DNA of 64,000 bases from Verrucomicrobiales bacterium (GTDB lineage: Bacteria; Verrucomicrobiota; Verrucomicrobiia; Verrucomicrobiales; DEV007). Below, one piece after another: positions 10,649 to 34,756 of this stretch. Under the pieces are notes generated by a model, which searched no databases, was not told the origin of the DNA, and worked only from the letters and a program-made list of their open reading frames with translations. Positions within the stretch are counted from its first letter, which is position 1. The number at the start of each line of letters is the position of its first letter. The DNA lies in assembly GCA_016795505.1 (NCBI GenBank), contig JAEUHH010000006.1, positions 1 to 64,000 of the forward strand, given 5' to 3'. The position numbers and the translations under genes are program-made.

Positions 10649-11224
10649 ATGCCCCACCGAATCGAAGGAAATTGGAACAAGGGCCTGGCCTACGACCTTC
10701 ACACCCTCTCCAGTTCTTTCCTCGGTACCGATGCCTACGGCCATGAACAATGGGAGAACACCCGCTCGGAAATGGGCGAACTGGTTTACCAATTGAAATA
10801 TCAGGAAAACCGCGAGGCGGTGAACGCGATCCTTTCTCTCCTGGACCGAATCAAGGGCATAGAGACCTTCGACTTGATCGTTCCCATCCCGGCCACGGAT
10901 CGCTCGCGCACGTACCAACCCGTCCGCTTGATTGCCGAAGCCCTGGGAGCGAAACACGGCGTCGATGTGGCGTCCGACCTGCTGGTGAAATTGGAGAGTC
11001 CACCACTCAAAAATGTGGAATCGCCGGGAGAACGGGAACATCTCCTCAGGGAGTCGATGGCCCTGACCCACGTTCGGGATGTGACCGGAGCCAAGGTATT
11101 GCTCGTCGATGACGTCTTCAGATCGGGAGCAACCCTCAATGCGGCGACGAATCTGCTTTTTGACCACGGACGGGTGCGATACGTTGGAGCATTGACCATG
11201 ACAAAAACCCGCAGCAATCGATGA
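10649..11224 (+). CDS. ComF-like phosphoribosyltransferase
   Basis: 191 aa. The type I PRTase signature VLLVDDVFRSGAT (residues 150-162) binds the PRPP 5-phosphate and ribose hydroxyls. Upstream, LIVPIPATDRSR and YQPVRLIAEALG match ComF-type proteins. The N-terminus (NWNKGLAYDLHT, then GHEQWENTRSEMGELVYQLKY) lacks the CxxC zinc finger of true ComF. I placed the start at ATG 10649 because upstream sequence in this frame overlaps the DUF4159 gene and has no similarity. The stop overlaps the next gene by 4 bases. Composition is less GC-rich than the flanking cluster. The likely role is nucleotide salvage or modification linked to its SLOG partner. Confidence 0.82.
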   Translation: MPHRIEGNWNKGLAYDLHTLSSSFLGTDAYGHEQWENTRSEMGELVYQLKYQENREAVNAILSLLDRIKGIETFDLIVPIPATDRSRTYQPVRLIAEALGAKHGVDVASDLLVKLESPPLKNVESPGEREHLLRESMALTHVRDVTGAKVLLVDDVFRSGATLNAATNLLFDHGRVRYVGALTMTKTRSNR

Positions 11225-11781
11225 AAACCGTCTTCGTTTCAGGATCGCGCGCCATCGGCCGATTGAACGAGGCGGTTCGAGATCGGCTTCGGAATGTCAT
11301 GCGACAATCCTTTCAGGTGATCCTCGGGGACGCGAACGGAGCCGACAAGGCGGTGCAGAACTTTTTGCACGAATCCGGATACCGACAGGTGGAAATTTTT
11401 TCGTCCGGTGGTCGGTGCCGCAACAATGTCGGCGCTTGGCCCGTGCGGGCGGTGGCAGTGGCGAAAGGTGTCGCCGGTCGTGATTTTTACACCGCAAAAG
11501 ACCGGAAAATGGCCGCCGAAGCGGACTTCGGAATGGTGCTTTGGGATGGAAAGAGTCCCGGCTCCTTGGAAAACATCGTTGAGCTGGCAAACCAGGAAAA
11601 GCCCGTGTTGGTCTACCTGGCACCCCACCAGGCATTTCACACCGTCACGACAGTCGACACCTTGAGGAGGCTGCTGGCTGACTGCAACGTCGCAGATCTC
11701 GAACAAATCTCCCGGAAGACGGGGCTGATATTGCCGACGGGTCCCGAATCCATTCCCCGTCAGGAAGCCCTCGCCTTTTAA
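11221..11781 (+). CDS. SLOG-superfamily nucleotide-binding protein
   Basis: 186 aa with a Rossmann-like SLOG fold. MKTVFVSGSRAIGRL is the first strand and loop, and ILGDANGADKAVQ (residues 35-46) is the characteristic G-D-x-x-G-x-D ligand-binding turn. AEADFGMVLWDGKSPGS forms the later strand with the acidic or Gly-Ser loop. SLOG proteins bind nucleotides or their derivatives (DprA, LOG and YpsA are relatives). Many are predicted sensors or glycosidases in conflict systems. Translation is coupled to the phosphoribosyltransferase through an ATGA overlap, so the products probably work on the same nucleotide. No effector domain is attached. Confidence 0.78.
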   Translation: MKTVFVSGSRAIGRLNEAVRDRLRNVMRQSFQVILGDANGADKAVQNFLHESGYRQVEIFSSGGRCRNNVGAWPVRAVAVAKGVAGRDFYTAKDRKMAAEADFGMVLWDGKSPGSLENIVELANQEKPVLVYLAPHQAFHTVTTVDTLRRLLADCNVADLEQISRKTGLILPTGPESIPRQEALAF

Positions 11782-30306: not shown

Positions 30307-31581
30307 TCACTCGGTCACCGCGTAGCACATCAGCTTCTCCTGTTCGCGCAGGTAGAGCCGGCCATCGACCACCACGGGGTGGGCCCAGCTTTTGCCTTTC
30401 TGAAAGGCGGGCTTGAACTGACCCTTCAGGTTGTAGCCCTTGGTGGTGGCCTCGATCAGCGCCACCACGCCGTCCTCGTAGCGGAAAATCAGGTCGCTGC
30501 CCGCCATCAGGATCGCCGCGGAACCCGATCCGGGACCGCGCTGGTCGCCACCCCACACGATCTTGCCGCTGGCCAACTCCACGCAGACGGGAAAGCCGTT
30601 GTTGTGCGCGTGGCCCATGTAAACGTGGCCGTCCTTCAGGATCATCCCGCCATGGTGATTCTGCAGCACTTTGCCATCGAGGAAATACTGCTCCTCGGCC
30701 TTCACTCCGTCGCCGTCCTTGACCAATTTCAGCAGCGCCGAGCCCGTGCCATAGCCGGTCGAGCAAAACACGTAGTCATCCTGCACCAGTGGCGTCGGGA
30801 TGTTCGCTGTGCCGTTGGCCACGTTGTTGTAATGCCACAGCGGCTTCCCGTCCTCGGCCCGCACGCCAACCGCCCCACGGCCGGTGACCTGCACGTATTG
30901 CTTCACCCCGGCGCCCTGGGAGATCACGATCGACGAATAGCCGGCGCCATCCTTGCCCTTCTTCCCCGCCTCGGCCGGGGCCGGCGCGCGCCAGATTTCC
31001 GCTCCGGTCTTCTTGTCGAGGGCCACCATCATCGCCTCCGCCCCGCCGGGCGTGCAGATGAGACGGTCACCATCGATGAGCGGGGACTCGCTGAAGCCCC
31101 AGCCGCTCATCATCACGCCGCCGAAGTCCTTGGCGAAGTTTTTCTTCCACACCACCTCGCCCGTCTCCGCCCGGGCACAGACGAGATCGCCAGCCAGGCC
31201 GATGGCATAGACCAGGTCGCCATCCACCTGCGGCGATCCATTGCTGTGGCCACCGGTACCGAAGACCGTGGTCCACAACGGCTTGCCATCGGTGGCGGAA
31301 AAGGCGAACAATGCCTCGCCGTCCTTGGTCTTGCCGAGGGTGAAAATCCGGCCGTCCGCCACGGCGACGCTGGAGTATCCCTGACCGCAACCTTCCGCCT
31401 GCCACAGCAGCTTCGGGCCGCCCTCCGGCCAAGCCTTCACGCCTTCCGGCGAGATGCCGTCGCGATTCGGCCCGCGCCAGCCCGGCCAATCCTTGGCGGA
31501 GGCGCGGTCAATCAGACTGCCGCCCAGAATCAGGCTGACGGCGAGGAGGGGCGTTGGAAATTGAGACGGGCGGATTTTCAT
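30307..31581 (-). CDS. Exported PQQ-like beta-propeller protein
   Basis: 424 aa. Signal peptide PTPLLAVSLILGGSLIDRASA. The mature domain starts WPGWRGPNRDGIS, the typical opening of the outer-membrane-associated PQQ-like propellers of Planctomycetes and Verrucomicrobia. It contains several blades with the PQQ motif (GEVVWKKNF, GAEIWRAPA, GKIVWGGDQ). No dehydrogenase active site is visible, so it is probably a scaffold or binding protein like BamB rather than an enzyme. Possible co-function with the neighbouring carbohydrate genes is inference. Confidence 0.87.
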   Translation of the reverse strand: MKIRPSQFPTPLLAVSLILGGSLIDRASAKDWPGWRGPNRDGISPEGVKAWPEGGPKLLWQAEGCGQGYSSVAVADGRIFTLGKTKDGEALFAFSATDGKPLWTTVFGTGGHSNGSPQVDGDLVYAIGLAGDLVCARAETGEVVWKKNFAKDFGGVMMSGWGFSESPLIDGDRLICTPGGAEAMMVALDKKTGAEIWRAPAPAEAGKKGKDGAGYSSIVISQGAGVKQYVQVTGRGAVGVRAEDGKPLWHYNNVANGTANIPTPLVQDDYVFCSTGYGTGSALLKLVKDGDGVKAEEQYFLDGKVLQNHHGGMILKDGHVYMGHAHNNGFPVCVELASGKIVWGGDQRGPGSGSAAILMAGSDLIFRYEDGVVALIEATTKGYNLKGQFKPAFQKGKSWAHPVVVDGRLYLREQEKLMCYAVTE

Positions 31582-31684
31582 GGTCGAAAACAGGAAGAAG
31601 TTTGGGAAACGACCGGAGATTGCCGGGATTCGTCGCTAAAATCGAGCAAAATCCGGAGCCTTACGCCATCGCGGGCCAGGCGAA

Positions 31685-31712
31685 GGCCACGCATTTTTCG
31701 CTTGAGCCACCG
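31685..31712 (+). repeat. 28-bp direct repeat, left copy
   Basis: The 28-bp sequence starting GGCCACGCATTTTTCG and ending GAGCCACCG is repeated perfectly at 32858-32885. The two copies bracket one AT-richer gene. The left copy sits in the intergenic space downstream of the divergent start of the propeller gene. Confidence 0.9.
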
Positions 31713-31819
31713 AACTGCCTTTCGTCATGACGGGAATGCCGTCCCCAGGGCTGACCACCAAAAATCCGGTTTCAAACCACGGCCCGCAAGCGTAGTCTGC
31801 GCCTGTCCAAACCACCGCA

Positions 31820-32713
31820 TTGAATGACGGAATCCAACTCGAGATCGACTTCCGAACCGGAATGCCAACCGCCATCGTCGGCGACAATGCTTCGGACGCC
31901 GTCCGACAGGCTTGCCAATCCCTCAACCGCGAGCGAACGCGCGGCCTCTTGGCAATCGCTCAGCAAACTCCACCCGGCGAATCGATTCCGGCTGATGTTT
32001 GGACAACCGCTTTTGAAAGCGCTGCAAGAGAATGGGAAGTCCCACCCATCCGACTGAGCCACCTGGGCATCGTTCGCGATTCCGACGGCTTCCTTGTCTC
32101 AAACAGCTTGCGCGCCCTGCCTCCAGGGGCTGAAGCGCAGCCCTATGCAGACGATGCAACCCGCGTCGTTTACAAATTGTTCGACCTCCGAGAAAATGGA
32201 TCTCTCGGAAAGAAGCTCGTTTTCAACGATTCCGAGGACGGTTTCGAAGTCGATGTGGCCGATGCGACTTGGATCGACGTGCTGGAAAAGATCTCTCTTT
32301 TGAACTCGGGCGGTGGTCTGCCGACCGAGATAGTGGGGTTGTCCGACAGCGGCGATTTCCTGATCGCCAAGCAACCCATGGCAAGCCCATGGATGGATTT
32401 TTTAGCCGATCGGGAGGTCGCAGAAGACCGCATGTGCGGAATACTCCCCATCGGAGGAGGACTGAGGCAACGCGTCTTCGTCACCTGGGTCGATGATGTG
32501 TTTTGGCTGGTTGGCGATCTGCACGATCGAAATATCATGCGGGATTCCGCCGGCGTGCCAGCGATCATCGACGCCTTGGCAGGCAAAGTGACTCCAAAGG
32601 CACGAAAGAGGCTGTTTTGGCTAAACAGGGCTTGCGAAGATGCCAAATCATTTCGCGAGAACGGTTCAAAACCCCAGAATCCGATGTGGGAAGTGTGCGA
32701 CGATCAACTTTGA
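31820..32713 (+). CDS. Kinase-like ORFan protein bracketed by direct repeats
   Basis: 297 aa from a TTG start (ATG at 31862 is an alternative). Two segments resemble the protein-kinase/aminoglycoside-phosphotransferase fold. The first is a beta-3-like VVYKLF (K119). The second is GDLHDRNIMRDSAG (232-245), giving D-x4-N catalytic-loop spacing, followed by PAIIDALAG with a possible metal Asp. Between them, EIVGLSDSGDFLIAKQPMA looks like the hinge. I do not recognise a named family; 'polyvalent' phage-associated kinase-like domains are similar in outline. The DNA is much less GC-rich than its neighbours. Together with the flanking 28-bp repeat, this marks it as an acquired unit. Kinase activity is inference. 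Confidence 0.55.
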   Translation: MNDGIQLEIDFRTGMPTAIVGDNASDAVRQACQSLNRERTRGLLAIAQQTPPGESIPADVWTTAFESAAREWEVPPIRLSHLGIVRDSDGFLVSNSLRALPPGAEAQPYADDATRVVYKLFDLRENGSLGKKLVFNDSEDGFEVDVADATWIDVLEKISLLNSGGGLPTEIVGLSDSGDFLIAKQPMASPWMDFLADREVAEDRMCGILPIGGGLRQRVFVTWVDDVFWLVGDLHDRNIMRDSAGVPAIIDALAGKVTPKARKRLFWLNRACEDAKSFRENGSKPQNPMWEVCDDQL

Positions 32714-32857
32714 ACAATCAGCCCGTCCTCCCTTGCCGAGGAGGGAGCCGGAGGTTTTCACAGCGACCGGATCAAGCAACGCACCGGTGCGAAAAATGAT
32801 CCCATCGGCGCTCAGTTCTGTCCGTTTTTCTCACCTTCAGGTGAAATCCAAACTTTT

Positions 32858-32885
32858 GGCCACGCATTTTTCGCTTGAGCCACCG
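32858..32885 (+). repeat. 28-bp direct repeat, right copy
   Basis: Perfect copy of 31685-31712, lying 27 bp before the SGNH hydrolase start codon. It suggests that this promoter-proximal sequence was duplicated when the 1.17-kb unit arrived. Confidence 0.9.
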
Positions 32886-32911
32886 GCCGCCCCACCGCCA
32901 TCCTGTCGGCC

Positions 32912-33559
32912 ATGCAAAAGACCATCCTCTGCTTCGGCGACTCGAACACCTGGGGATTCATCCCCGGGAGCGATTGCGAGCGTTACGCACCCGGCATCCG
33001 CTGGCCTGGCGTGATGGCAGCGGCGCTCGGGTCCGGCTATCGCATCGTCGAGGAAGCCCAGAATGGCCGCATGACCGCCTGGGACGATCCCACGGAGCCG
33101 TTCGTCAACAAGTGCGGCGCCACCCACCTGCCGGTCGTGCTGGAATCGCAAAAGCCGATCGACCTCGCCATCCTCATGCTGGGCACCAACGACCTGAAGA
33201 ACCACATGAATCACAATGCCTGGGCCATCGCCGAGGGCATGGGCGCACTGGTGGACATCGTCCTCGCCAGCGACTCCGGACCGGCAAAATCCGCCCCCCG
33301 CGTACTCGTCGTCGCGCCTGTGCCGGTGCATCCCGAGGCGAAATGCCCCTTTGGCCGCCTTTTCGACCGTGCCGCGCCCCTGTCCCGCGAGCTGGCGGCC
33401 GCCTACCGCGAGATCGCCGACGACCGGGCCGTGGCGTTCCTCGATGCCGGCGCCCACGCGAGTTGCCCGGCGACTGACTGCATCCACATCGACGACACCG
33501 GCCACGCCGCCATCGGCCGGGCCATGGCCGACGCGGTGCGCCGGCTGCTAGCAGACTGA
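32912..33559 (+). CDS. SGNH/GDSL hydrolase, arylesterase-like
   Basis: 215 aa. ILCFGDSNTWG (block I, catalytic Ser in GDSN), then the EEAQNGRMTAW region (block II Gly), LMLGTNDLK (block III Asn in GTND), and DCIHIDDTGHA (block V with Asp and His) complete the SGNH catalytic set. No signal peptide, so cytoplasmic. Related proteins cleave acetyl or acyl esters on sugars or xenobiotics. It converges with dcd. Its 5' region carries the right copy of the 28-bp repeat. Confidence 0.92.
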   Translation: MQKTILCFGDSNTWGFIPGSDCERYAPGIRWPGVMAAALGSGYRIVEEAQNGRMTAWDDPTEPFVNKCGATHLPVVLESQKPIDLAILMLGTNDLKNHMNHNAWAIAEGMGALVDIVLASDSGPAKSAPRVLVVAPVPVHPEAKCPFGRLFDRAAPLSRELAAAYREIADDRAVAFLDAGAHASCPATDCIHIDDTGHAAIGRAMADAVRRLLAD

Positions 33560-33574
33560 TCGCGAACTGCCGGA

Positions 33575-34111
33575 TCAGAATTTGTTGCGCCACATCATCG
33601 ACTCGACCGGCAGTGGCGTGCGCTGGTTGTATTTGGCCGAGACCTTGGTGCTGTAGGGCGTGAGCACCTCGCCCTGGACGAGAAAATAGATCAACTGCCC
33701 GATCGGCATGCCTTCATAGACCCGCACCGGCTGCTTCACGGAGATCTCCAGCGTCCAGTGGTTGCAAAAACCCACGTCGCCCTTGCCGGCGGTAGCGTGG
33801 ATGTCGATGCCGAGCCGTCCCACGGACGATTTGCCCTCCAAAAAGGGCACCGCGTGGTGACTCTCGGTGTATTCGATGGTCGATCCGAGATAGTTGATCT
33901 GCGGCTCCAGCACGTAGCCCTCCGGCGGGATCTCGAAATGGTCGATCTCATTGTGAGCGCGGGCATCCAGCACGCGGTTCCGGTAGGTCGCGAGATGCCG
34001 GCTCAAATGCACGTCATAGCTGTTGGTGCCCAGACAATCGCGGTCGTAGGGCTCGATCACGATGTCTCCCCGCTGCATGGCGGAGAGGATTTCGGCGTCG
34101 GAAAGGATCAT
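33575..34111 (-). CDS. dcd: dCTP deaminase
   Basis: 178 aa, start MILSDAEILSAM chosen over one 4 codons upstream. It deaminates dCTP to dUTP for thymidylate synthesis. IEPYDRDCLGTNSYDVHLS and EGKSSVGRLGIDIHATAGKGDVGF are the homotrimeric dUTPase/dCTP-deaminase motifs, the latter with the catalytic Glu and the nucleotide loop. A REP-like repeat lies just upstream of its start. Confidence 0.94.
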   Translation of the reverse strand: MILSDAEILSAMQRGDIVIEPYDRDCLGTNSYDVHLSRHLATYRNRVLDARAHNEIDHFEIPPEGYVLEPQINYLGSTIEYTESHHAVPFLEGKSSVGRLGIDIHATAGKGDVGFCNHWTLEISVKQPVRVYEGMPIGQLIYFLVQGEVLTPYSTKVSAKYNQRTPLPVESMMWRNKF

Positions 34112-34113
34112 GA

Positions 34114-34163
34114 CTCCGATCAAACAGGGTTCGGTCTCCGAGTCAACCCTGTTGTCTCGGAAA
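34114..34163. repeat. REP/BIME-like intergenic repeat, copy 4 (inverted pair)
   Basis: Left half GATCAAACAGGGTTCGG and right half CAACCCTGTTGTC are inverted with respect to each other, so AACAGGGTT/AACCCTGTT form a 9-bp stem. It lies between dcd and the upstream membrane-protein gene. Confidence 0.72.
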
Positions 34164-34180
34164 TACGGGCGCCGCGGGGC

Positions 34181-34756
34181 TCAGTAAAACAGCGCCGCGC
34201 ACACCGTGACCGCGAGTCCATAGCCGAGACCGGCGAGGCAGAGAGGCTTCCACCGACCCGGCTCGGCCAGCGCCCAGGCGATCTGGTCCCGCATCAGATA
34301 GGGCATCCCGACCCAGAACATCCCGAGCACGATCCAGACGTAAGCCAGCGCCACCAGGAGCAGCCGGCTCACCGGCGGTTCGAGGAAGGCCGCATCGAGC
34401 ACGGGACAGGCCGCCAGGATGAGGAAAAAGCCGATCGCCCGCACGGCGAGGAATTCCTTCACATAGATCGAAACGCCGAAGAATCCGGCGATTAGGATGG
34501 CCTGGACGGGATGCTCCAGATTGTAAAATTCGCCGAGATCCATTTCGGACCATACCAGCAGCGCCCAGGCAAAATCGATGGCGAGGATGGCCACGCCGAT
34601 CCGCTCATTCCGCGGCAGGGCGGTGAGGAATCCGGTCAATTTGTCCCGGTTGGCGAAGGCGTAGGCATGGGCCGCCATGAGGGCGATCCCCACGACCCAG
34701 CCCACCGTCTTCAGGGACAGGTCGTCGTAGAGAAACTGGTAGAGGGCGGCGGTCAT
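34181..34756 (-). CDS. Integral membrane protein, unknown
   Basis: 191 aa with about five to six hydrophobic helices (VGWVVGIALMAAHAYAFA, VAILAIDFAWALLVW, AILIAGFFGVSIYVKEFL, IGFFLILAACPVLDAAFL, LLLVALAYVWIVLGMFWVG, LGYGLAVTVCAALFY). No known transporter or enzyme motif is visible. It is transcribed toward dcd, with a REP-like repeat between them. Family unknown to me. Confidence 0.72.
   Translation of the reverse strand: MTAALYQFLYDDLSLKTVGWVVGIALMAAHAYAFANRDKLTGFLTALPRNERIGVAILAIDFAWALLVWSEMDLGEFYNLEHPVQAILIAGFFGVSIYVKEFLAVRAIGFFLILAACPVLDAAFLEPPVSRLLLVALAYVWIVLGMFWVGMPYLMRDQIAWALAEPGRWKPLCLAGLGYGLAVTVCAALFY

Follow-up and report, generated by a model that had tools for sequence, protein, structure and literature searches.

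How did a single kinase-like gene come to lie between two identical 28-bp sequences in the chromosome of a Verrucomicrobiales bacterium? The gene, here termed KIN, is located at positions 31820-32713 (+ strand) of a 64,000-nucleotide stretch of contig JAEUHH010000006.1 (assembly GCA_016795505.1; this whole stretch is referred to below as the window), and an earlier note on this DNA had described it as an ORFan carried by a non-autonomous cassette. In the current work, the explanation that is favoured, to which about an even chance is given, is a single insertion of KIN that duplicated 28 bp of its target, this target being the intergenic region between a beta-propeller gene and an SGNH hydrolase gene.

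The 28-bp repeat pair and the gene it encloses

The left copy of the perfect direct repeat (GGCCACGCATTTTTCGCTTGAGCCACCG, 31685-31712) and the right copy (32858-32885) are identical at 28 of 28 positions, exactly where the earlier note had placed them; they start 1173 bp apart and have sharp edges, the sequences that flank the two copies being unrelated on both sides. A third copy was not found at up to three mismatches in the organism's own 6.55-Mb assembly (120 contigs), nor did the 28-mer occur in 56 relatives or in viral contigs. Within a 1.91-Mb sample of the own genome, which represents 29% of that genome, is biased to contig starts and includes the window, degenerate relatives of the 28-mer were absent at one to seven mismatches, while three matches were obtained at eight mismatches and the counts at eight to ten mismatches stayed within what shuffled controls yield. 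Repeats in general are frequent in this sample; isolated and sharp-edged exact direct repeats of at least 28 bp, placed 300-8000 bp apart, are limited to three pairs, namely the pair around KIN, one made up of both ends of a 4.7-kb contig, and one with 13-mers recurring elsewhere. Considering that there is no third copy, that comparable pairs are few and that degenerate relatives are lacking, the 28-bp repeat is real and non-random, and it is singular among the repeat pairs of the sample. Contig C46 of the same genome (L170, 4680 bp) has ends identical over 50 bp, as would be the case for a molecule that is circular or for a repeat unit, and contains a 773-aa open reading frame (ORF).

The enclosed gene is AT-richer than its surroundings, as had been noticed, and its codon usage is foreign to its neighbours: KIN has a GC content of 0.562 and a GC content at third codon positions (GC3) of 0.62, whereas the GC3 of the remaining window genes scored is 0.78-0.89; its codon-usage score is 0.396, and those of the other 23 window genes scored are 0.58-0.80. 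This foreign codon usage, together with the absence of KIN from all three congeners (3/3), supports the earlier proposal that the gene arrived laterally and entered once. Elsewhere in the window, another single ORF of low GC3 (0.67; 11221-11781) without a Pfam match lies between core-type genes and has no framing repeat.

A patchy family of stand-alone kinases

Kinase-PolyVal (PF18762) is characterized by a Glu before strand 2, a Gln in the last strand of the N-lobe and the loss of the C-lobe (PMC5512222). Across 14 sequences of the KIN family, K119 (in V-Y-K) and D233 are invariant, and H235, N238 and D251 are nearly so; E105, likewise invariant, directly precedes a strand at 107-111, and Q185 lies within a strand at 180-186, both strands having been assigned approximately from an AlphaFold2 model of KIN (predicted local distance difference test score, pLDDT, 81.7). 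H235 and D251, which may correspond to the phosphotransfer His and Asp on either side of an insert in PolyVal, are 16 residues apart. Past D251, the model contains only two helices (259-264 and 266-281) and a low-confidence tail, which fits the loss of the C-terminal kinase subdomain. A BFVD structure search returned a PolyVal kinase (E 2.3e-4) and an LPD-containing protein (E 2.5e-4) among its best matches, and the best match of a PDB structure search was a protein kinase, albeit a weak one (E 0.011). KIN therefore deserves the kinase-like label it had been given: it keeps the catalytic residues of Kinase-PolyVal (the ATP-binding Lys and the phosphotransfer His, Asp and Asn) and shows similarity to its fold. 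Unlike Kinase-PolyVal, however, it is a stand-alone chromosomal gene of 297 aa with its own N-terminal part of ~90 residues, and the family matches the PF18762 profile weakly at most (4 of 14 members, best E 0.0044; the window protein none). Judged by sequence and by model, KIN would be related to the polyvalent-protein kinases, though distantly and as a gene that stands alone; by analogy with these kinases (PMC5512222), a putative role in modifying proteins in genetic conflict is the leading guess. Searches of Defence (PADLOC), NCBIfam, PHROGs and PDB sequences gave nothing useful. A TTG start (31820 in the window) is kept in nearly all family members (loci L097-L112), as TTGAATGA or TTGAGCAATGA, and an ATG in another frame follows a few bases past it, which is unusual for a conserved gene.

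KIN is not an ORFan, given that at least 20 homologues occur patchily across Verrucomicrobiales. It was present in 11 of the 57 genomes searched (own genome included), and a GTDB scan, the genomes of which partly overlap this set, revealed 17 loci, each assigned by its label to Verrucomicrobiota or to one of the taxa that this phylum includes; no match to KIN was obtained in viral contigs, in IMG/VR searches or in phage and plasmid records. The genes that flank KIN are unrelated between most loci, flanking exact repeats of more than 15 bp were absent from the other KIN loci, and no non-coding borders common to the window and other KIN loci were detected above shuffles. Because homologues are thus found at unrelated loci without comparable repeats, the 28-bp repeat is not the hallmark of a cassette; a second gene framed by the 28-mer was also not found in the 1.91-Mb sample, and the notion of a non-autonomous cassette defined by this repeat is not supported. 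Two candidates for a parallel were rejected: a 15-bp repeat at both ends of a Haloferula gene (L108) is located inside coding sequence, and the propeller adjoining KIN in L105 shares only 28% identity with that of the window and was treated as coincidence.

Two metagenome-assembled genomes (MAGs) from the same sample, represented by L102 and L099, have in common a trpS gene (290 of 325 residues identical, 89%) and an FAD-dependent gene. KIN of L102 (5983-6885) is positioned between these two genes on the same strand; KIN of L099 (189-1109) is found beyond trpS in the opposite orientation, the gap between trpS and the FAD-dependent gene being occupied by other small ORFs, and the two KIN genes are only 55% identical. 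Between L097 and L098, the kinase has diverged about as much as its flank (82% and 85%, respectively, at the DNA level), and the KIN family is for this reason not simply fast-evolving. From these sequence comparisons, the KIN genes of L102 and L099 may be separate acquisitions, both without repeats. The trpS surroundings in these two loci represent a possible small insertion hotspot. In genome G041, KIN is located at the sole synteny break of a 12.5-kb stretch when compared to its congeners G045 and G048. The family has apparently been gained and lost across Verrucomicrobiales, and is apparently mobile. Three members are broken by a frameshift or an in-frame stop (L105:6001-6895, L111:2829-3710 and L003:1501-2193), which suggests either turnover or sequencing errors in MAGs.

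The locus and the origin of its repeat

Between the two repeat copies, KIN is preceded by a 107-bp leader (31713-31819, + strand, GC 0.59), which has no detectable homology to the leaders of other family members, and is followed by a 144-bp trailer that extends from its stop codon to the right repeat (32714-32857) and is foldable, though not significantly so (z -1.73). The left neighbour is a PQQ (pyrroloquinoline quinone)-type beta-propeller gene (PF13360, 30307-31581, - strand). To the right, the SGNH/GDSL hydrolase gene (PF13472, 32912-33559, + strand) begins 26 bp beyond the right copy, which therefore adjoins its start codon as had been reported, and is followed by the dCTP deaminase gene dcd (PF22769, 33575-34123, - strand). 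The unit itself consists of one gene, and no transposase or integrase was detected among the 24 window proteins scanned, in agreement with the earlier note. When the unit is removed together with one repeat copy, 103+28+26 bp remain, this being a plausible divergent intergenic region, and a single insertion with target duplication is therefore favoured. By this mechanism, a stand-alone KIN gene would have inserted once, in the lineage of this species, into the ~157-bp divergent propeller/SGNH intergenic region, and a staggered break or the templated repair of ends would have made two copies of 28 bp of the target, one to either side of the gene; the 28-mer would not be recognized by any machinery dedicated to cassettes. 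We infer a single event behind repeat and insertion, with the 28 bp coming from the target rather than from donor DNA.

Several points weigh against this explanation. None of the three congeners has the propeller-SGNH junction, which leaves no syntenic position, occupied or empty, for comparison. At 28 bp, the repeat is longer than the target duplications usual for transposons, and in this respect, as well as in having no terminal inverted repeats (no inverted repeat has its arms at the ends of the unit) and in being single-copy, the KIN unit differs from a non-autonomous transposon or miniature inverted-repeat transposable element, which it resembles in having direct repeats at both ends, as target duplication gives. 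Finally, the neighbouring genes are relocated when compared to the congeners, and the repeat could stem from another rearrangement.

This last point leads to a rival explanation, in which the repeat is the scar of a local change in gene order, produced for example when the SGNH gene was relocated or by templated end-joining, rather than of the arrival of KIN. Within window positions 30307-34756, the propeller, SGNH, dcd and a 191-aa membrane gene are all relocated, their congener orthologues being elsewhere, with two congeners in agreement for SGNH, dcd and the 191-aa gene: SGNH follows an mscL-like gene (named from sequence) in G001 and G002, dcd occupies a different neighbourhood common to G001 and G003, the 191-aa gene is beside a MiaB-like gene (also named from sequence), and the propeller orthologue of G001 is in another neighbourhood; the blocks at 27.2-30.3 kb and from clpC to 42 kb are conserved in the congeners. 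KIN of G041 is likewise at a synteny break. However, gene order is scrambled throughout the genus, because of which nearby breaks are expected anyway and the break at the KIN locus is unremarkable by itself, and the two copies bracket exactly the one compositionally foreign gene. A rearrangement scar is accordingly considered rather doubtful.

A second possibility is that KIN is a small integrative element, of which the 28-bp repeats are attL/attR-like sites acted on in trans by a tyrosine recombinase (Xer or an integrase). IMEX-type elements argue in favour of such an exchange, as does the make-up of the unit, a single gene in 1.17 kb. The repeats have the same length as the 28-bp pdif sites found in dif modules (PMC13141974), a length that also suits att cores, and the KIN unit resembles these modules and other Xer-dependent elements in placing one gene between 28-bp sites. 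In contrast to dif modules, the KIN 28-mer is chromosomal, has no further copies in the genome or in the 56 relatives, and does not resemble E. coli dif, with 11 of 28 positions matching, a value reached by 23% of shuffles (the E. coli reference may differ from the local dif). A classical dif was not found in the own genome at three mismatches, and a divergent local Xer site may exist. Being a small single-gene unit, KIN is also reminiscent of an integron gene cassette, but attC R' (GTTRRRY) and R'' (RYYYAAC) boxes are absent from either strand of both intergenic regions, including the 144-bp trailer and the vicinity of both unit ends, and no integrase was seen among the 24 window proteins scanned. 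Together with the repeat-free state of the other KIN loci, this makes an att-type exchange unlikely.

It is very improbable that the 28-mer serves as a regulatory element, duplicated so as to precede both KIN and SGNH: each copy does lie upstream of a + strand gene, but the distance to the start differs (107 versus 26 bp), the copies are completely identical and without degenerate relatives, and no promoter-like site overlaps either of them. With just two copies in the own genome and none in relatives, the 28-mer is also not the widespread promoter that the earlier note had named as the finding that would undo its proposal. An assembly artefact at a short repeat, for which the fragmentation of the assembly into 120 contigs and the closeness of 28 bp to common assembly k-mers might be held to speak, is scarcely credible, as the two positions have unique flanks inside an 88.5-kb contig and nothing beyond the 28 bp is collapsed or duplicated.

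Single genes in Verrucomicrobiota chromosomes

The KIN locus most likely reflects a lateral gain of the ordinary kind that left an unusually clean scar. A broader view, namely that single kinase genes of the polyvalent type travel from one Verrucomicrobiota chromosome to another as one-gene elements by an undescribed integration route which sometimes duplicates 28 bp of the target, is regarded as quite improbable. What had been viewed as an ORFan cassette is now placed in a patchy family of stand-alone kinases related to the polyvalent kinases of phages and conjugative elements and, should the empty site be found in a close strain, the 28-bp scar would reveal the way in which single genes come into these chromosomes.
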